Below, one piece after another: positions 2,257 through 52,371 of a stretch of 64,000 bases of DNA. Every line of letters begins with the position of its first letter. Position 1 is the first letter of the stretch. The position numbers and the translations under genes are program-made. Source of the stretch: an uncultured Chthonomonas sp. (GTDB lineage: Bacteria; Armatimonadota; Chthonomonadetes; Chthonomonadales; CAJBBX01); contig CAISJD010000097.1 of NCBI GenBank assembly GCA_903885605.1, positions 1 through 64,000 of the forward strand, read 5' to 3'. Under the pieces are notes generated by a model that ran no database searches, was not told the origin of the DNA, and saw only the letters and a list, made by a program, of their open reading frames with translations.

Positions 2257-5153
2257 GGCTCTCCCCGGCGCACGCGCTCCTTGCCGCGGCCTGGACTGCC
2301 CTTGCGTCTCCGTGCGCACGCGCCGAGGAGATCGTCTGGAGCCTGGGCGGCCCGTCGCAGAGCGTCACCGCCCAGCGCTTCTCCTACCACTCCCAGTCGC
2401 ACACCGGATTACGCGGCGCCACCGCCTGGGACCCCTGCTGGCTCTTCCGGTTGCCGAACGGTCCCATCGATGCCGATCGCTTCCGGTACCTGGAGCTGCG
2501 CCTCTACTCGTCCGCCCCGGCCGATCTGCTGGACATCTACTGCAAGGCCCCCGACGGCGAGTGGGGCCTCATGGGACGCCACGCCATCGTGCGCGGCTGG
2601 GCCACCTACCGGGTCGACCTGGCGACCCTCGCCGCCCACGAGTGCAGCGGCTCACCGGGCTCGCGCAAGTGGGGATCGACGCAGCGTAGCGTCGCGGCGT
2701 TCCGCATCGACCCCGGCAACGAGGCCGGCCGCTGGGTCGCCCTCTCGTCGATCCGCCTGACGGACCAGCCCCTGGCCGACGGCGTCACCTCCGAGCCGAG
2801 GGGCGAGTGGCGCCGCCGCACCCTCGACGTGGAGCCGAAAGCCACGGCCGGCCGGCCCATCCGCGTGAAGGCCGCCCTGGAGCCCGCGCCCGGCGCGCCG
2901 CCCTCGGTCACGGCCGGCGTGCGCCTGCTCCGTGGCGGGCAGGTGATCGCTGATCGCGATGCGCCTCTGGCCTCCCTCGGGGCCACCAGGCTCGATCAGA
3001 TCTTTCCCACGTCCCGCTTCATGCCCTCCGGCGACATGACCGTCGAGGTCGACGCCTACGAGCTACAGGGCGCACCGGTCCGCGCCGAGGTGGCGCTGCG
3101 GAACCCGCGCGAGGGCGTCGCCAGGATGCCCGGAGCGGCCGTGCGCCGGGTGGGCGGCGAGCCGACGCTGGTGGTCGACGGCAAGCCCCTGGTCGGCATG
3201 GCCTACCTCACCGCCTCGGGCCGCCACCCGGAACTCCATGCCCAGTTCGCCCGGGCGGGCATCCACCTCTACATGGACTGGTTCGGCACGTCCGGCGAGG
3301 GCGCCCTGGGCCACGTCGCGCAGGACCGTTACGACTACGGCGAGTTTGACGCCTACTTCGCCGAGATGCTCGACGCCGACCCTCAGGCGCTCTTCATTCC
3401 GCACCTACACCTGACCCCGCCGCTCTGGTGGCAGAAGGCCAACCCCGTCGAGATGTGCCGCCACCTCGACGGCACTGCCGACCTGCAGTCGTTCGCCTCC
3501 GAGAAGTGGCGGCGCGAGATCGGCGACGACCTGCGCCGCCTCCTGGCCCACCTCCGCTCGGCGGGCTACGCCGACCGCATCCTGGGCTTCATCCTCTGCA
3601 GCGGCGTGACATCCGAGTGGCAGCAGTGGGGCGTCTGGGGCGACAAGCTGGCCGACGTGAGCGAACCCCAGCGCCGCGCCTTCGCCGCCTGGCGCCGCGC
3701 CCACGGCCGCACGGACGACGGCCTCCCCACCGCCGGAGAGCGGGCAGGCGGCGATGCCATGGTCCTCCGCGACCCACGGACCGAGCAGCGCGTCATCGAC
3801 TACTACCGCTTCGCCTCCGAGACCATCGCCGACGCCATCGCCCACTTCGCCGGCATCGTCAAGGCCTCCACCGCCGGCCGCGCCGTGGTGGGCGCCTACT
3901 ACGGCTACCTCACCCAGCACGGGCCGCACCAGCAGGACGCAGGCCACCTGGCGCTGGACCGACTGCTCGCCTCGCCGCACGTCGACTTCCTCATGAGCCC
4001 GCCCATGTACACCGGCCGCGAGGTGGGCGGAGCCAGCGCCTTCATGTCCGCCGACGCCTCCGTGCGGCTTCGCGGTAAGCTCTGGCTGAACGAGTCGGAC
4101 ATCCGCACGAGCCTCAGCGACCCCGGCGCAGGCTTCGGCCGAGCCGACACGCTGGACCAGAGCCGCGCGCTCCTGCTCCGCGAGTTCGGCGAGATGCTCG
4201 CCCGCCGGTCGGCCACCTCGTGGTTCGACATGGATGCCGGCTGGTTCGACCACCCGGCCATCCTGCGCGACATGGCCGCCATGCGCCGCCTGGCCGCCGA
4301 CGCCCTCCGCACCCGCAAGCCCTTCCGCAGCGACATCGCCGTCTTCATCTGCGCCGACTCGGCCTACCGCATGAAGCCCTCCATGCTCTGGGTTCCCGCA
4401 GTCCTCACGCCCATCGCCGAGCTGCCCCGCGTGGGCGCCCCGGCCGATGTCTACCTGCTCAGCGACCTGAAGAGGCCCGACTTCCCGGCGTACAAGGTCT
4501 ACGTCTTCCTCAACGCCGCGTACCTGGACGAAGCCACCCGCCGCGCCATCGAGCGCAAGGTGAAGCGGCCCGGCGCGGCGGCCCTCTGGTGCTTCGCGCC
4601 CGGCGCGCTGACCGACCAGGGCCTCTCCGCCGACGCCATGCGGACGCTCACCGGCATCCGCCTCGCCATGGAGCCCCGCGCCTCGGTGCAGCAGGTCGAA
4701 GCCGCCCCGTCGGCCCCGCGCATGCCGGAACTCGGGCTCATCGGCTGGGATCAGCCCTACGGACCCACCGTCTGGGCCGACGATCCCGCCGCCGAGGCCC
4801 TGGGCCTCGTTCGCGACTCCGGCCGCCCGGGCCTCGTGCGCAAGCGGATCAACGGATGGACGAGCGTGGCCTTCACCGGCGTGGGCCTCCCGCCGCCCCT
4901 CCTCCGCGAGATCGCCCGCCAGGCCGGCGCCCACATCTGGCTCGACACCAACGACGCCCTCGACACCGACGCCGAGTGGCTGTGCATCCACGCCCGCGGC
5001 ACAGGCCCCAAGACCCTCCGCCTGCCCGCCCCCTGCCGCGTCACTAACGCGATGACCGGTGAGGTCCTGAGCCCCCGCGCCGACCGGCTCACGATCCAGA
5101 TGAAGGCCGGTGAGACCATCCTCCTGCGCCGAACCGAACCGACCAGGCCCTGA
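2253..5153 (+). CDS. secreted GH42-like glycoside hydrolase (beta-galactosidase-type TIM barrel)
   Basis: 966 residues from a GTG that overlaps the upstream stop codon (GTGA). The open frame continues far upstream, but only this start gives a signal peptide: MRLSPAHALLAAAWTALA, then ...CARA before EEIVW. Residues about 25-290 look like beta-sandwich binding domains. From about residue 305 (LVVDGKPLVGMAYLT) a TIM barrel begins. Glu455 in GVTSEWQQWG and Glu614 in LWLNESDIRTS are candidate acid/base and nucleophile, with a spacing like that in GH42. A Rossmann-like domain follows (VYVFLNAAYLD region), as in the GH42 trimerisation domain, and then a small C-terminal beta domain. This ties it to the upstream glycosidase as a two-gene saccharolytic operon. 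The substrate is unknown. Confidence 0.75.
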   Translation: MRLSPAHALLAAAWTALASPCARAEEIVWSLGGPSQSVTAQRFSYHSQSHTGLRGATAWDPCWLFRLPNGPIDADRFRYLELRLYSSAPADLLDIYCKAPDGEWGLMGRHAIVRGWATYRVDLATLAAHECSGSPGSRKWGSTQRSVAAFRIDPGNEAGRWVALSSIRLTDQPLADGVTSEPRGEWRRRTLDVEPKATAGRPIRVKAALEPAPGAPPSVTAGVRLLRGGQVIADRDAPLASLGATRLDQIFPTSRFMPSGDMTVEVDAYELQGAPVRAEVALRNPREGVARMPGAAVRRVGGEPTLVVDGKPLVGMAYLTASGRHPELHAQFARAGIHLYMDWFGTSGEGALGHVAQDRYDYGEFDAYFAEMLDADPQALFIPHLHLTPPLWWQKANPVEMCRHLDGTADLQSFASEKWRREIGDDLRRLLAHLRSAGYADRILGFILCSGVTSEWQQWGVWGDKLADVSEPQRRAFAAWRRAHGRTDDGLPTAGERAGGDAMVLRDPRTEQRVIDYYRFASETIADAIAHFAGIVKASTAGRAVVGAYYGYLTQHGPHQQDAGHLALDRLLASPHVDFLMSPPMYTGREVGGASAFMSADASVRLRGKLWLNESDIRTSLSDPGAGFGRADTLDQSRALLLREFGEMLARRSATSWFDMDAGWFDHPAILRDMAAMRRLAADALRTRKPFRSDIAVFICADSAYRMKPSMLWVPAVLTPIAELPRVGAPADVYLLSDLKRPDFPAYKVYVFLNAAYLDEATRRAIERKVKRPGAAALWCFAPGALTDQGLSADAMRTLTGIRLAMEPRASVQQVEAAPSAPRMPELGLIGWDQPYGPTVWADDPAAEALGLVRDSGRPGLVRKRINGWTSVAFTGVGLPPPLLREIARQAGAHIWLDTNDALDTDAEWLCIHARGTGPKTLRLPAPCRVTNAMTGEVLSPRADRLTIQMKAGETILLRRTEPTRP

Positions 5154-49517: not shown

Positions 49518-49553
49518 GTACCACACCGCTTCCCGGCCGCTTTGTGGTACTAT
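49518..49553 (+). promoter_or_regulatory. extended -10 promoter inside an inverted repeat
   Basis: TG-G-TACTAT (49545-49553) is an extended -10 element; a transcript would begin near 49560, exactly at the first riboswitch stem. An 8-bp perfect inverted repeat (GTACCACA at 49518-49525, TGTGGTAC at 49543-49550) spans the -35 to -10 region and overlaps the -10, so a dimeric repressor could bind here. No recognisable -35 hexamer is present, as is common with extended -10 promoters. Confidence 0.6.
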
Positions 49554-49559
49554 ATAGGT

Positions 49560-49634
49560 GCATCCAGAGAGGCCCGCAAGGGTTCAGCAACCGGGTTGGA
49601 GACACCACGGTGCTACGAGGTTCGCCCTCGATGC
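49560..49634 (+). ncRNA. SAM-riboswitch-like aptamer (possible SAM-I/IV variant)
   Basis: Closing stem P1 pairs GCATC (49560-49564) with GATGC (49630-49634). Inside are SAM-I/SAM-IV core blocks in order: CAGAGAGG, a short P2 with a GCAA tetraloop (CCC GCAA GGG), AGCAACC, then ACGGTGC and a P4 hairpin (GAGG/CCTC). Two downstream segments could pair with the P3 loop: GTCTCC (49662-49667) with GGAGAC, and AACCC (49654-49658) with GGGTT, a pseudoknot of the kind used by SAM-IV. P2 lacks the kink-turn and pseudoknot loop of SAM-I. A terminator follows. The same core blocks recur in the second aptamer 80 bases downstream. Confidence 0.5.
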
Positions 49635-49669
49635 GTGGGAGCTCGGCCTCCCAAACCCGAAGTCTCCAT

Positions 49670-49700
49670 GCCACGGTCGCGGGTGCGGTGGTGGCTTTTT
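49670..49700 (+). terminator. Rho-independent terminator between the two aptamers
   Basis: GCCAC pairs with GTGGC across an inner CGC/GCG stem with a GGGT loop, followed directly by TTTTT (49696-49700). It is placed where an expression platform would be for the first aptamer; the upstream GTCTCC that could pair into that aptamer ends only 2 bases before it, so aptamer folding could influence this terminator. Confidence 0.65.
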
Positions 49701-49711
49701 CTGTGTCGGAA

Positions 49712-49815
49712 CCTATCCAGAGTGGCGCGAGGGCACGGCCCTATGACCGCCCGGCAACCAGGCTCCCAGCGGGCCACGGTGCCAAGTCCGTCCCCCGAAG
49801 CGGGGGGTCGATAGG
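49712..49815 (+). ncRNA. SAM-I (S-box) riboswitch with the ribosome site in P1
   Basis: Matches the S-box consensus block by block: P1 CCTATC (49712-49717) with GATAGG (49810-49815), AGAGTGGCGCGAGGG, GGCCCTATGA, CCCGGCAACC, then CACGGTGCCAAGTCC and a P4 hairpin (CCCCCGAAGCGGGGG). The 3' strand of P1 contains the GGAG of the ribosome site (49814-49817) for an ATG at 49824. SAM binding would stabilise P1 and hide that site, so this is a translational OFF switch. Upstream there is an independent aptamer-like element with its own terminator. Confidence 0.88.
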
Positions 49816-49823
49816 AGAGAACG

Positions 49824-49937
49824 ATGCATCACGCGACGGTCTGCCGGGCCCCCCGAGGCCCTGTCTCCTCCTACCCGACGTACTGCCCGCGCCACGCCGG
49901 TTCGGCGCGACCCATCCACGAAGGAGGCCCACGATGA
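49824..49937 (+). CDS. 37-residue open frame controlled by the SAM-I riboswitch and coupled to the next gene
   Basis: ATG at 49824 follows GGAG (49814-49817), which sits in the riboswitch P1 stem. The frame runs 37 codons and its TGA (49935-49937) overlaps the next ATG (49934). The peptide begins MHHATVCRAPRGP and is rich in Pro, Arg, His and Cys; I do not recognise it. It may be a real small protein or a translated leader that couples the switch to the downstream gene. A hairpin (CGCGCC/GGCGCG, about 49889-49909) lies in its second half. Codon use is unremarkable for the region. No homologue is known to me. Confidence 0.5.
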   Translation: MHHATVCRAPRGPVSSYPTYCPRHAGSARPIHEGGPR

Positions 49938-50497
49938 GCACGACACTCAAGAAGGTGACGCGCCTGCTGAACGACCAGGGCTGGCGGGTCCACACGTCCA
50001 GCGACGGGACGGCCGCCATCATCGCCCAATCCGGCGACAGGGCGCAGCCGATCATGTTCGAGCTCTATGAGGAGGGCAGGCTCGTGCGCCTCCTCGTCCC
50101 GTGGTTCATGGCCCTGCCCGAAGGCGACAAGCGGGAGGCGCTGCTGGCCAAGCTCATGCAGCGCAACAACCTGCTCAAGCTGGTGAAGTTCGGCCTGAAC
50201 CCCGATACGGGCGAGGTCACGGCCGAGATCGAGCTGCCCGTTCTGGGCGCCAAACTGCGCAAGGGCCAGCTGAAGCGCGCCATCTGGATTCTGGCGCAGT
50301 CTCTGCCCGAGCACCGCGAGGCGCTCCAGAAGTTCCTGGAGACGGGCGTCGATCCGCGCGACGAGCAGGAGAACATGGACAACACGGTGCGCAGGCTGCT
50401 CGAAGCCGAGCCGGGCGACGAGGACGGCGACGAGCTTGGCGAGGATGATGACACCAGCGACATGCCCGCGCTACCCGACATGCTGATCGACGAGTAG
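49934..50497 (+). CDS. YbjN-like protein with acidic C-terminus
   Basis: 187 residues, possibly of the YbjN/T3SS-chaperone-like fold: KKVTRLLNDQGWRVHTSSDGTAAII, MFELYEEGRLVRLLVPW, LMQRNNLLKLVKFGLNPDTGEVTAEIELP and IWILAQSLPEHREALQKFL form the typical alpha-beta pattern. The last 35 residues are strongly acidic (EPGDEDGDELGEDDDTSD). YbjN-type proteins are poorly understood stress or chaperone-like proteins. The start overlaps the short riboswitch-controlled frame (ATGA), and an internal GAAGGAGG lies 7 bases before the ATG. Control by SAM is unexpected for such a protein. Confidence 0.75.
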   Translation: MSTTLKKVTRLLNDQGWRVHTSSDGTAAIIAQSGDRAQPIMFELYEEGRLVRLLVPWFMALPEGDKREALLAKLMQRNNLLKLVKFGLNPDTGEVTAEIELPVLGAKLRKGQLKRAIWILAQSLPEHREALQKFLETGVDPRDEQENMDNTVRRLLEAEPGDEDGDELGEDDDTSDMPALPDMLIDE

Positions 50498-50512: not shown

Positions 50513-50686
50513 ATGACGAACGGACCCCGGCCTCGCCGACATCGCTCGGCGGGCCGGGATGACGGACAGCGTGCCCATCAAGAGCGGCGGCAGGGTTCCG
50601 GCCCTTTGACCGCGCGACGAGGGGCGATACCGGCGACCCGCCGTACCCCCATGGAGGAACCAGCGCCGCCGACCGCGAATGGATGA
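50513..50686 (+). CDS. doubtful 57-residue Arg/Pro-rich ORF
   Basis: ATG at 50513 follows GGAAGGAG with ideal spacing and is 15 bases after the YbjN-like stop, so it would fit the transcript. The protein begins MTNGPRPRRHRSAGRDD and is Arg/Pro/Gly rich with no fold I can recognise. High-GC DNA often gives such chance frames, and no start is needed here for the next gene, whose own ribosome site is at about 50700. I keep it because of the ribosome site, but it may be noncoding. Confidence 0.25.
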   Translation: MTNGPRPRRHRSAGRDDGQRAHQERRQGSGPLTARRGAIPATRRTPMEEPAPPTANG

Positions 50687-50717
50687 TGCCTACAGCCACC
50701 CGGAGGAGCCCTGACCC

Positions 50718-52283
50718 ATGAGACTGGCCGGCATCGACATCGGCGTGTTCGTCCTCTACCTGCTGGCCGTACTGGCGGTGGGCGTCGCGGCCGCACGGCG
50801 GGCGTCGGGGACCAAGCGCGACTACTTCCTCGCGGGCGACAAGCTGCCCTGGTGGATGATCGGCGGCTCCATCGTGGCGGCCAACATCAGCAGCCACCAC
50901 TTCGTCGGCGTCATGGGCACGGCCTACAGCCGGGGCTTCGTGGCCATGACCATCGAGTGGGGCGCCATCCTGGTGGGGTTCAACGCGCTGCTCTGGATCT
51001 TCCTGCCCTTCTACCTGCGCAACGGCTTCTACACCATGCCGGAGTTCCTCGAGCGGCGCTTCGGCCCGGCGGCCCGCACCTCGTACGCGGCGCTGATCCT
51101 CCTCACCTACGTCTTCGTTGAGATCAGCGCGGTGCTCTACCTGGGCGCCATCGCGGTCCACTCCATGGTGGGCGCGCCGATCCTGGGGAGCATCATCGCG
51201 CTGGCCCTGCTCACCGGCCTCTACACCATCGTCGGAGGCCTGCGTGCGGTGGTCTGGACGGAGATGCTGCAGCTCGTGGTCCTGCTCATCGGCGGGCTCA
51301 CGCTGGCGATCGTCACCATCAACCGCGTGGGCGGCCTCCAGGGCGTCATGGCCACGTCCGGCAATTGGCATCTGATCCTGCCCGCGGATGACCCGGACTT
51401 CCCGTGGACCATGTACCTGGGCGGCCTCACCTGCATCAGCATCTTCTACTGCGCGGCCAACCAGTTCATCGTGCAGCGGACGCTGGCCGCCAAGGACGAG
51501 TGGCACGCGCGCATGGGCGTGGTCTTCGCCGACTACCTCAAGTTCCTCATGCCCCTGCTCATCATCGTGCCGGGACTGGTGGCGCCGGCGCTCTTCCCGA
51601 AGCTGGAGAAGGGCGACATGGTCTTCCCCATGCTGGTGAAGACGCTGCTGCCGCACGGCCTCATCGGACTGGTGATGGCGGGGCTCATCGCGGCCATCAT
51701 GTCGCACGTGGCGGGCGCCGTGAACTCATGCACCACCATCGCCGCGGTGGACTTCTTCGTGCCCTACGCGCGGCAGGGCTCCGATGAGCGCGCCGTGGTC
51801 CGGTTCGGCAAGGCGGCGGGCGTGGTGATCCTGATGCTCAGCGTCGTCTGCGCGGTGACGCTGGTGAGCCACTCCGACAAGCCGGTCTTCATCTACCTGC
51901 TGGCCGCCTACGGCTACTTCACGCCGGGCATCGCGACCATGTTCCTGCTGGGCATCTTCTGGCGCCGGGCCACCACGGCGGGCGCCCTGGCGGCGGGCCT
52001 GCTGACGATCCCGCTGTCGGCCGCGCTGCAGTTCGCGCTACCCAAGATGCCCTTCATGAACCGCACGGGCATCGCGTTCTGGGCCTGCATGGCCGTCTGC
52101 GCGGCGGTGAGCCTCATGACCAAGCCACGGAGCGCCGAGGAGCTGACGGGCCTCATCTGGACCCGCGATAGCCTGCGCCTCCCGCAGGAGATGCGCGAGA
52201 AGATGCGGGGCGTCCGTAACCCGGCCCTCTGGTGGGCGGCGCTCACGGCGGTGCTGCTGGTCATCTACGTGAAGTACCGATAG
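50718..52283 (+). CDS. sodium:solute symporter (SSS family)
   Basis: 521 residues, about 13 membrane segments. The SSS hallmark is near the N-terminus: RDYFLAGDKLPWWMIGGSIVAANISSHHFVG, in which residues of helix 1 and the SxxS-like Na+ region lie. Later helices include the family motif GLYTIVGGLRAVVWTEMLQLVVLLIGG (the GGxxAVxWTDxxQ motif). It belongs to the sugar/myo-inositol-like SGLT-type group, suggested by similarity of these segments and by the many glycosidase genes nearby. The substrate is inferred. A bidirectional terminator follows. It may be cotranscribed with the YbjN-like gene under the SAM riboswitches; 220 bases separate the two. Confidence 0.88.
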   Translation: MRLAGIDIGVFVLYLLAVLAVGVAAARRASGTKRDYFLAGDKLPWWMIGGSIVAANISSHHFVGVMGTAYSRGFVAMTIEWGAILVGFNALLWIFLPFYLRNGFYTMPEFLERRFGPAARTSYAALILLTYVFVEISAVLYLGAIAVHSMVGAPILGSIIALALLTGLYTIVGGLRAVVWTEMLQLVVLLIGGLTLAIVTINRVGGLQGVMATSGNWHLILPADDPDFPWTMYLGGLTCISIFYCAANQFIVQRTLAAKDEWHARMGVVFADYLKFLMPLLIIVPGLVAPALFPKLEKGDMVFPMLVKTLLPHGLIGLVMAGLIAAIMSHVAGAVNSCTTIAAVDFFVPYARQGSDERAVVRFGKAAGVVILMLSVVCAVTLVSHSDKPVFIYLLAAYGYFTPGIATMFLLGIFWRRATTAGALAAGLLTIPLSAALQFALPKMPFMNRTGIAFWACMAVCAAVSLMTKPRSAEELTGLIWTRDSLRLPQEMREKMRGVRNPALWWAALTAVLLVIYVKYR

Positions 52284-52297
52284 CCGCCAAGCTCAGG

Positions 52298-52336
52298 AAG
52301 GCTGCCGCTTCTGAGACCCAAGAAGCCGGCAGCCTT
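52298..52336. terminator. bidirectional terminator between convergent genes
   Basis: AAGGCTGCCG-CTTCT (52298-52312) pairs with AGAAGCCGGCAGCCTT (52321-52336) with a single bulge and an 8-base loop. It lies between the stop of the symporter (52283) and the end of the minus-strand gene (52372), and its A/T-rich arms end in AAG/CTT so that either strand could use it. Confidence 0.7.
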
Positions 52337-52371
52337 GAAGACGACCCGCCGAGCCTACGTCCCGCGCCCGG

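Follow-up and report, generated by a model that had tools for sequence, protein, structure and literature searches.

Two SAM aptamers ahead of a YbjN-family gene

The window, a 64-kb stretch of DNA from a lake bacterium of the Armatimonadota, carries two predicted SAM riboswitches of different classes in series upstream of ybjN. An Rfam search of the whole 64 kb gave exactly two matches above the gathering score (cut-offs 41.1 bits for RF01725, SAM-I-IV, and 44.4 bits for RF00162, SAM), both on the + strand. The first is a SAM-I/IV aptamer at 49555-49669 (RF01725, 48.2 bits, E 8.7e-5, model positions 1-99 of 99), and the second is a SAM-I or S-box aptamer at 49710-49817 (RF00162, 64.9 bits, E 8.1e-13, model positions 1-108 of 108). 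Behind the second element follow a 37-aa leader ORF (49824-49937, +), a YbjN-family gene (49934-50497, +; 187 aa, Pfam PF10722, E 5.5e-11) and the gene of an SSF-family sodium:solute symporter (50718-52283, +; PF00474, E 7.2e-71). An earlier note on this DNA had described an extended -10 promoter, an aptamer-like element closed by GCATC/GATGC, a T-tract terminator and a full S-box, and had proposed that the elements be run against Rfam and the locus be compared in relatives. All four features were located, both elements scored above the gathering cut-off, and both recur at the corresponding position in two sister species (G001 and G002).

The promoter reads TGG-TACTAT at 49545-49553 (+), so that transcription is expected to start ~6 bases on, near 49559, and the start of the first aptamer coincides with this position. 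The promoter-region TTTGTGGTACTATAT is identical in G001 and G002, and the bases directly upstream have diverged, with 52% identity to the window over the 20 bases before the -10. The element closed by GCATC/GATGC is the SAM-I/IV aptamer (RF01725), in which these strands form P1 (49560-49564/49630-49634, +). The S-box motifs AGAG, AGGG, GGCCCTATGA, GGCAACC, GGTGCCAA and TCC are all present in the second element.

A SAM riboswitch regulon is recognised by a downstream gene of methionine, cysteine or SAM metabolism or transport; the genes found here encode YbjN, the SSF symporter and, in the sister species, an SNF2-family protein. The earlier note had seen no gene of a known SAM pathway behind the switches, and the Pfam assignments of the YbjN-like protein and the symporter (PF10722, PF00474) agree with this. 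Searched against solved structures, the YbjN protein gave only weak or spurious sequence matches. The abstract on DR1245 of Deinococcus radiodurans describes a protein related to the YbjN family, as is ours by PF10722, with the chaperone-like fold of YbjN proteins; DR1245 differs in partnering the SSB-like protein DdrB, and no riboswitch is mentioned in that abstract (PMC3575483).

The order of SAM-I/IV, terminator, SAM-I, short ORF and ybjN is kept in both sisters. Identity of the leader to that of the window is 93-97% between the -10 and the U-tract and 90-93% in the SAM-I part, and in the leader ORF it falls to 40-76%. YbjN itself shares 59% identity with the window protein in G002 and 36% in G001. 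Constraint thus acts more strongly on the leader RNA than on the protein encoded behind it (90-97% vs 36-59%). The YbjN divergence (window 49934-50497; L045 6412-6957; L044 7110-7595), seen among species with 97-98% identity in the symporter, may reflect very fast change or allele replacement. When the genomes of 101 relatives were searched for both families, SAM-I/IV and SAM-I occurred as distinct neighbours only in this genus, and no SAM-I partner was found at the other SAM-I/IV loci examined.

The SAM-I/IV aptamer and its terminator

Besides P1, the first element forms P2 (49571-49575/49580-49584), P3 (49591-49596/49604-49610) and P4 (49617-49620/49626-49629), then P5, all on the + strand. 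The earlier note had wanted covariation to be looked for in relatives, and the helices of the SAM-I/IV element do covary in a set of 20 such sequences drawn from Armatimonadota and Terriglobia; the structure whose four helices were scored was one that we specified ourselves. In this set 95.7% of cells were paired, vs 86.6% in shuffles, 11 of the 20 base pairs showed double changes, and the covariation score was twice that of the shuffles, none of which (0/500) reached any of the five measures. When the partners were slid by 1-3 columns, pairing dropped to 26-42%. SAM-I/IV aptamers have a P2 without the internal loop that is found in SAM-I and SAM-IV (PMC2864571). P2 of the first element consists of five contiguous pairs without internal loop, all of which show double changes in relatives, with 100% of cells paired.

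The SAM-IV-type aptamers have a pseudoknot between the P3 loop and a tail 3' of P1. In the window the P3 loop UGGAGAC (49597-49603, +) can pair with GUCUCCA (49662-49668) in the tail after P5, and only 1.3% of shuffled tails pair as well (1.3-2.3% across the three species). Read by eye, loop and tail co-vary in relatives, being GAAGAAC/GTTCTTC in G041 and AAGAC/GTCTT in G114; over all loci the evidence for the pseudoknot is uneven, as in about half of them at least 15% of shuffled tails were as good.

The aptamer is followed by an intrinsic terminator at 49670-49700 (+), which corresponds to the T-tract terminator of the earlier note and has a stem at 49670-49695 (GCCACGGUCGC/GCGGUGGUGGC, loop GGGU) and the TTTTT at 49696-49700 as its U5 (-15.5 kcal/mol). 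It is kept in the sister species (-19.9 kcal/mol), and the two bases that differ between sisters and window (U-A to U-G, G-C to G-U) preserve the pairing. A generic terminator scan found the site, which was not significant alone (1 found, 0.6 expected); among the SAM-I/IV elements of the set, 14 of 26 have an intrinsic terminator behind them, vs 5 of 208 random stretches.

A candidate antiterminator joins the terminator to the aptamer. Its 5' arm (49587-49603, +) comprises the 5' strand of P3 and the pseudoknot loop, and it can pair with 49662-49680, a segment that spans the pseudoknot tail and the terminator 5' arm. The duplex has a folding energy of -22.6 kcal/mol, which was reached by 2 of 5000 shuffles, and it is the same in all three species. 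In the nascent RNA, before the 3' arm of the terminator has been made, the antiterminator has an advantage of 5-6 kcal/mol over the aptamer without ligand or pseudoknot, again in all three species. The terminator contributes -15.5 to -19.9 kcal/mol and the pseudoknot duplex by itself ~-10 kcal/mol, and therefore ligand and pseudoknot could tip the balance to termination, the folding energies leaving out pseudoknots and co-transcriptional kinetics. Two observations count against a two-level switch here. The antiterminator does not vary among the three species and therefore has no covariation support, and the stability of whole-leader folds did not exceed that of shuffles (z -0.16 and -0.04). 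We infer that SAM binding would lead to termination at the first element.

The SAM-I aptamer, the leader ORF and a third element

The second element is also a complete aptamer in the sisters (65.2 and 71.5 bits), and its core motifs AGAG, GGCAACC and GGUGCCAA are kept in the window and in both of them. Its P1 pairs CCTATC with GATAGG (49712-49717/49810-49815, +). The first three bases of a Shine-Dalgarno sequence, AGGAG (49813-49817, +), lie inside this P1, and the AUG of the leader ORF follows 6 bases on. With P1 enforced in folding, the unpaired probability of AGG was 0 in all three species; in the ligand-free state P1 was missing from the minimum-energy fold of all three. The ligand-free Shine-Dalgarno was mostly free in G002 and free at its first four bases in G001, and in the window it was paired with the leader ORF and so hidden too, which counts against a two-level switch. 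Anti-Shine-Dalgarno pairing was considered for the second element and dropped; since the ligand-free folds differ among the three species, we propose no ON structure for it. The SAM-I element of the Xanthomonas campestris met operon also acts mainly on translation, with its Shine-Dalgarno hidden in the unbound state as well, but it is a single element in a methionine operon with tRNA sensing, whereas the Shine-Dalgarno here is in P1 itself (PMC7270179).

The TGA of the leader ORF overlaps the ATG of ybjN (ATGA). The start of this ORF, its Shine-Dalgarno and the ATGA overlap are kept in G001 and G002 beside the diverged coding sequence, and the overlap, kept in three species, suggests that ybjN translation is coupled to that of the leader ORF. 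In the window, ybjN is also equipped with a good Shine-Dalgarno (GAAGGAGG) and may be partly independent of this coupling.

The three species thus share two complete aptamers, with a terminator after the first and the Shine-Dalgarno in P1 of the second. From this anatomy we think it likely that the locus is a bi-mechanism tandem, in which two SAM OFF-switches act on one transcript. At low SAM, the SAM-I/IV element would pair its P3 5' strand and loop with the pseudoknot tail and the terminator 5' arm, and RNA polymerase would read on; P1 of the SAM-I element would stay unformed, and the ribosome would use AGGAG to translate the leader ORF and then, via the ATGA overlap, ybjN. With ample SAM, formation of the SAM-I/IV aptamer and its pseudoknot would free the terminator arm and transcription would stop near 49700, and in the transcripts that escape, the Shine-Dalgarno would be locked in P1 of the SAM-I element. 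The net effect would be that the genes are expressed only at low SAM. The earlier note had placed the first element at termination and the second at translation, which fits both the anatomy and the conservation.

Two other readings of the pair concern how its members act. Both elements could work at one level, as a pseudo-cooperative pair in which SAM-I, for example, also acts via transcription or Rho, and most of the double SAM-I riboswitches in a survey of tandem riboswitches are thought to be pseudo-cooperative (PMC9481103). We regard this as quite improbable for the present locus, where the search behind the second element gave no stem with a T-tract, P1 holds the Shine-Dalgarno and the ORF starts 6 nt on. 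Alternatively, only one element may be a working switch and the other a relic or spare, which binds SAM without regulating. The hidden ligand-free Shine-Dalgarno in the window fold speaks for it, and so does a third copy in the same operon, described below, whose decay in the window species indicates that copies can be lost; but both elements are 90-97% identical in three species beside fast-changing sequence, and both keep all core motifs and their own expression platforms, and we consider it unlikely.

A third SAM-I-like element, left out of the earlier note, lies between ybjN and the next gene. In the window it is a remnant of the 5' half only (~50572-50626, +; 18 bits, below gathering), and the sisters carry a syntenic copy (L044 6839-6945, -; L045 7046-7152, +) that scores 50.6 bits in G001 and 41.3 bits in G002. 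The G002 copy is ~78% identical to the second element of the window, and its P1 again lies over a Shine-Dalgarno. In both sisters the core has changed, AGAG to CGAG in J1/2, GGCAACC to GGCATCC and GCCAA to GCCCC, so that judging from these motifs the ligand may have changed or been lost. The gene behind it in the sisters encodes an SNF2-family helicase, and the G002 protein has a sub-threshold match to the SWIM zinc finger. In the ancestral operon under the bi-mechanism reading, the third element would have repeated the gate before the SNF2 helicase gene. Membership of a named defence system was considered and rejected for SNF2: its many PADLOC matches to defence helicases (ZorD, DpdE, DrmD) reflect general SNF2 similarity, and in NCBIfam it scores far below every curated cut-off.

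In the window the symporter gene occupies the place of SNF2, for which the genome of the window species gave no match at E 1e-30. Homology to the G002 locus breaks off within the third element, at 50613, and from 52368 onwards the sequence is again homologous to the G001 locus. The intervening DNA (50700-52287) is the symporter, which is found elsewhere in both sisters at 97-98% identity. On the simplest reading of this synteny, SNF2 was replaced by the symporter in the window lineage, which also lost half of the third element; the junction (window 50613-52368) could also be a misassembly of this metagenome-assembled genome. The earlier note had raised a transport target, and the symporter is indeed the next co-directional gene in the window. 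The idea that the switches serve transport by controlling the symporter has almost no likelihood left, because the same symporter stands at another locus in both sisters, where SNF2 lies behind the switches, and because the third element is broken at the symporter junction. The symporter is rejected as the target on this synteny and was probably not an ancestral target of the switches, and this part of the earlier proposal did not stand.

SAM-I/IV elements in the phylum and known tandem riboswitches

In the genome of the window species, another SAM-I element lies upstream of metK, and a SAM-I/IV-like element of 38.8 bits, which is below the cut-off, lies upstream of a gene for a MoxR-type AAA+ ATPase. 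Five further genomes of Armatimonadota (G041, G134, G174, G184 and G186) have a SAM-I/IV element ahead of genes for MoxR, VWA and a divergent MetK homologue. At these loci (L049 2647-7457; L084 2858-7385; L086 5877-10667, -; L085 2019-6420; L077 2946-7774) the element is followed by the MoxR AAA+ ATPase, a DUF2201-like VWA protein and the divergent MetK, in which GHPDK is kept; no description of this gene set was found in the literature searched. At other YbjN or SNF2 homologues, no SAM switch above the cut-off was present in 14 loci. SAM is the probable ligand of the class here, given that SAM-I/IV elements stand ahead of operons that encode a MetK homologue, and because other SAM-I/IV elements of the phylum precede MoxR-VWA-MetK operons, a SAM-linked function of the targets, as the earlier note had supposed, gains indirect support. 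As these operons show, genes outside sulphur metabolism are repeatedly found under predicted SAM-I/IV control in the group.

The same operons bear on the possibility that one element of the tandem has changed its ligand, in which case the locus would respond to two signals. Some known SAM-I variants sense spermidine and carry changes in J1/2 and P3 (PMC10853860), the target genes at our locus are not SAM genes, and the third element of the sisters is altered in J1/2 and the other two core motifs given above. We judge such a change very improbable for the first two elements, which keep the canonical core motifs and of which the SAM-I/IV class has relatives preceding a MetK homologue.

Several SAM-I/IV loci in the set have other arrangements. 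At the head of the MoxR-VWA-MetK operon of G174, two SAM-I/IV elements (L077 2946-3059 and 3347-3458) flank a small ORF that looks ribbon-helix-helix-like by eye, and in G103 two such elements stand ~20 nt apart (L081 1771-1887 and 1909-2021, -). In an operon behind a SAM-I/IV element, L046 encodes a SAM synthetase C-terminal domain joined to DUF3293 (4142-5014, -), and in G022 DUF3293 stands alone behind a SAM-I/IV element. At L053 (G002:C12:14020-14144) a SAM-I/IV-like leader of the MoxR type lacks a MoxR gene downstream and may be a relic. SAM-I/IV elements also occur in the Terriglobia of the Acidobacteriota (L056 976-1098; L059 4192-4315, -; L060 1018-1140), and those of L056 and L060 lie upstream of a 257-aa ORF that contains several pairs of cysteines and has no Pfam match. 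A phage or plasmid origin was considered and rejected: YbjN and MoxR had no match in phages and the leader none in plasmids. The SAM-I/IV core pattern was absent from viral contigs; a 15-base SAM-I pattern gave 31 viral matches, a pattern this short being unspecific. The divergent MetK matches phage-borne SAM synthetases at only ~31-33% identity.

Tandem SAM riboswitches have been surveyed before, and the tables and main passages of that survey count 149 SAM-II/SAM-V tandems, 7 of SAM-II then SAM-I/IV, 2 of SAM-I/IV then SAM-II, 164 double SAM-I and 1 triple SAM-I, the bi-mechanism idea being stated for SAM-II/SAM-V (PMC9481103). SAM-I/IV then SAM-I is absent from these tables and main passages, although an earlier sighting may stand unlisted there, for example in the supplements. 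A later survey of contiguous riboswitches pooled all SAM classes as one family (PMC12452182). As far as these sources and our sequences go, SAM-I/IV then SAM-I appears to be a new combination of known parts. As described in those passages (PMC9481103), the SAM-II/SAM-V tandems of marine bacteria resemble it in having two SAM aptamer classes, with the terminator first and the ribosome site second and both OFF, features that at our locus are read from the sequence. Our tandem differs from them in its classes, SAM-I/IV then SAM-I, in its phylum, in having no sulphur or SAM gene downstream and in the third element of the operon. The pairs of SAM-I/IV with SAM-II, in either order, likewise join SAM-I/IV to a second SAM class, but the partner there is SAM-II (PMC9481103). 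Double SAM-I riboswitches share the repeated sensing of SAM on one transcript, as in the second and third SAM-I-like copies here; as reported in the passages cited, they are of one class, whereas at our locus the leader pair combines two classes and the third copy sits between two genes (PMC9481103).

A wider reading is that SAM shortage serves as an alarm. The SAM-I/IV and SAM-I switches of Armatimonadota would silence YbjN with the SNF2 helicase, and MoxR-VWA with the second SAM synthetase, while SAM is ample, and would let them be expressed once SAM drops, as might happen if a virus destroys SAM or DNA methylation fails; the fast-diverging YbjN would be the part under conflict. We offer this as a speculation that is unlikely to hold. 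The bi-mechanism tandem itself would add a further type of two-level SAM switch, one assembled from a pair of structurally related aptamers, and would suggest that gating by SAM first at transcription and then at translation arose more than once. It would also tie tight SAM control to genes without a known role in SAM metabolism, and the SAM-I/IV set of the phylum, namely MoxR, VWA and the second MetK, may provide a concrete gene list for what SAM shortage signals.
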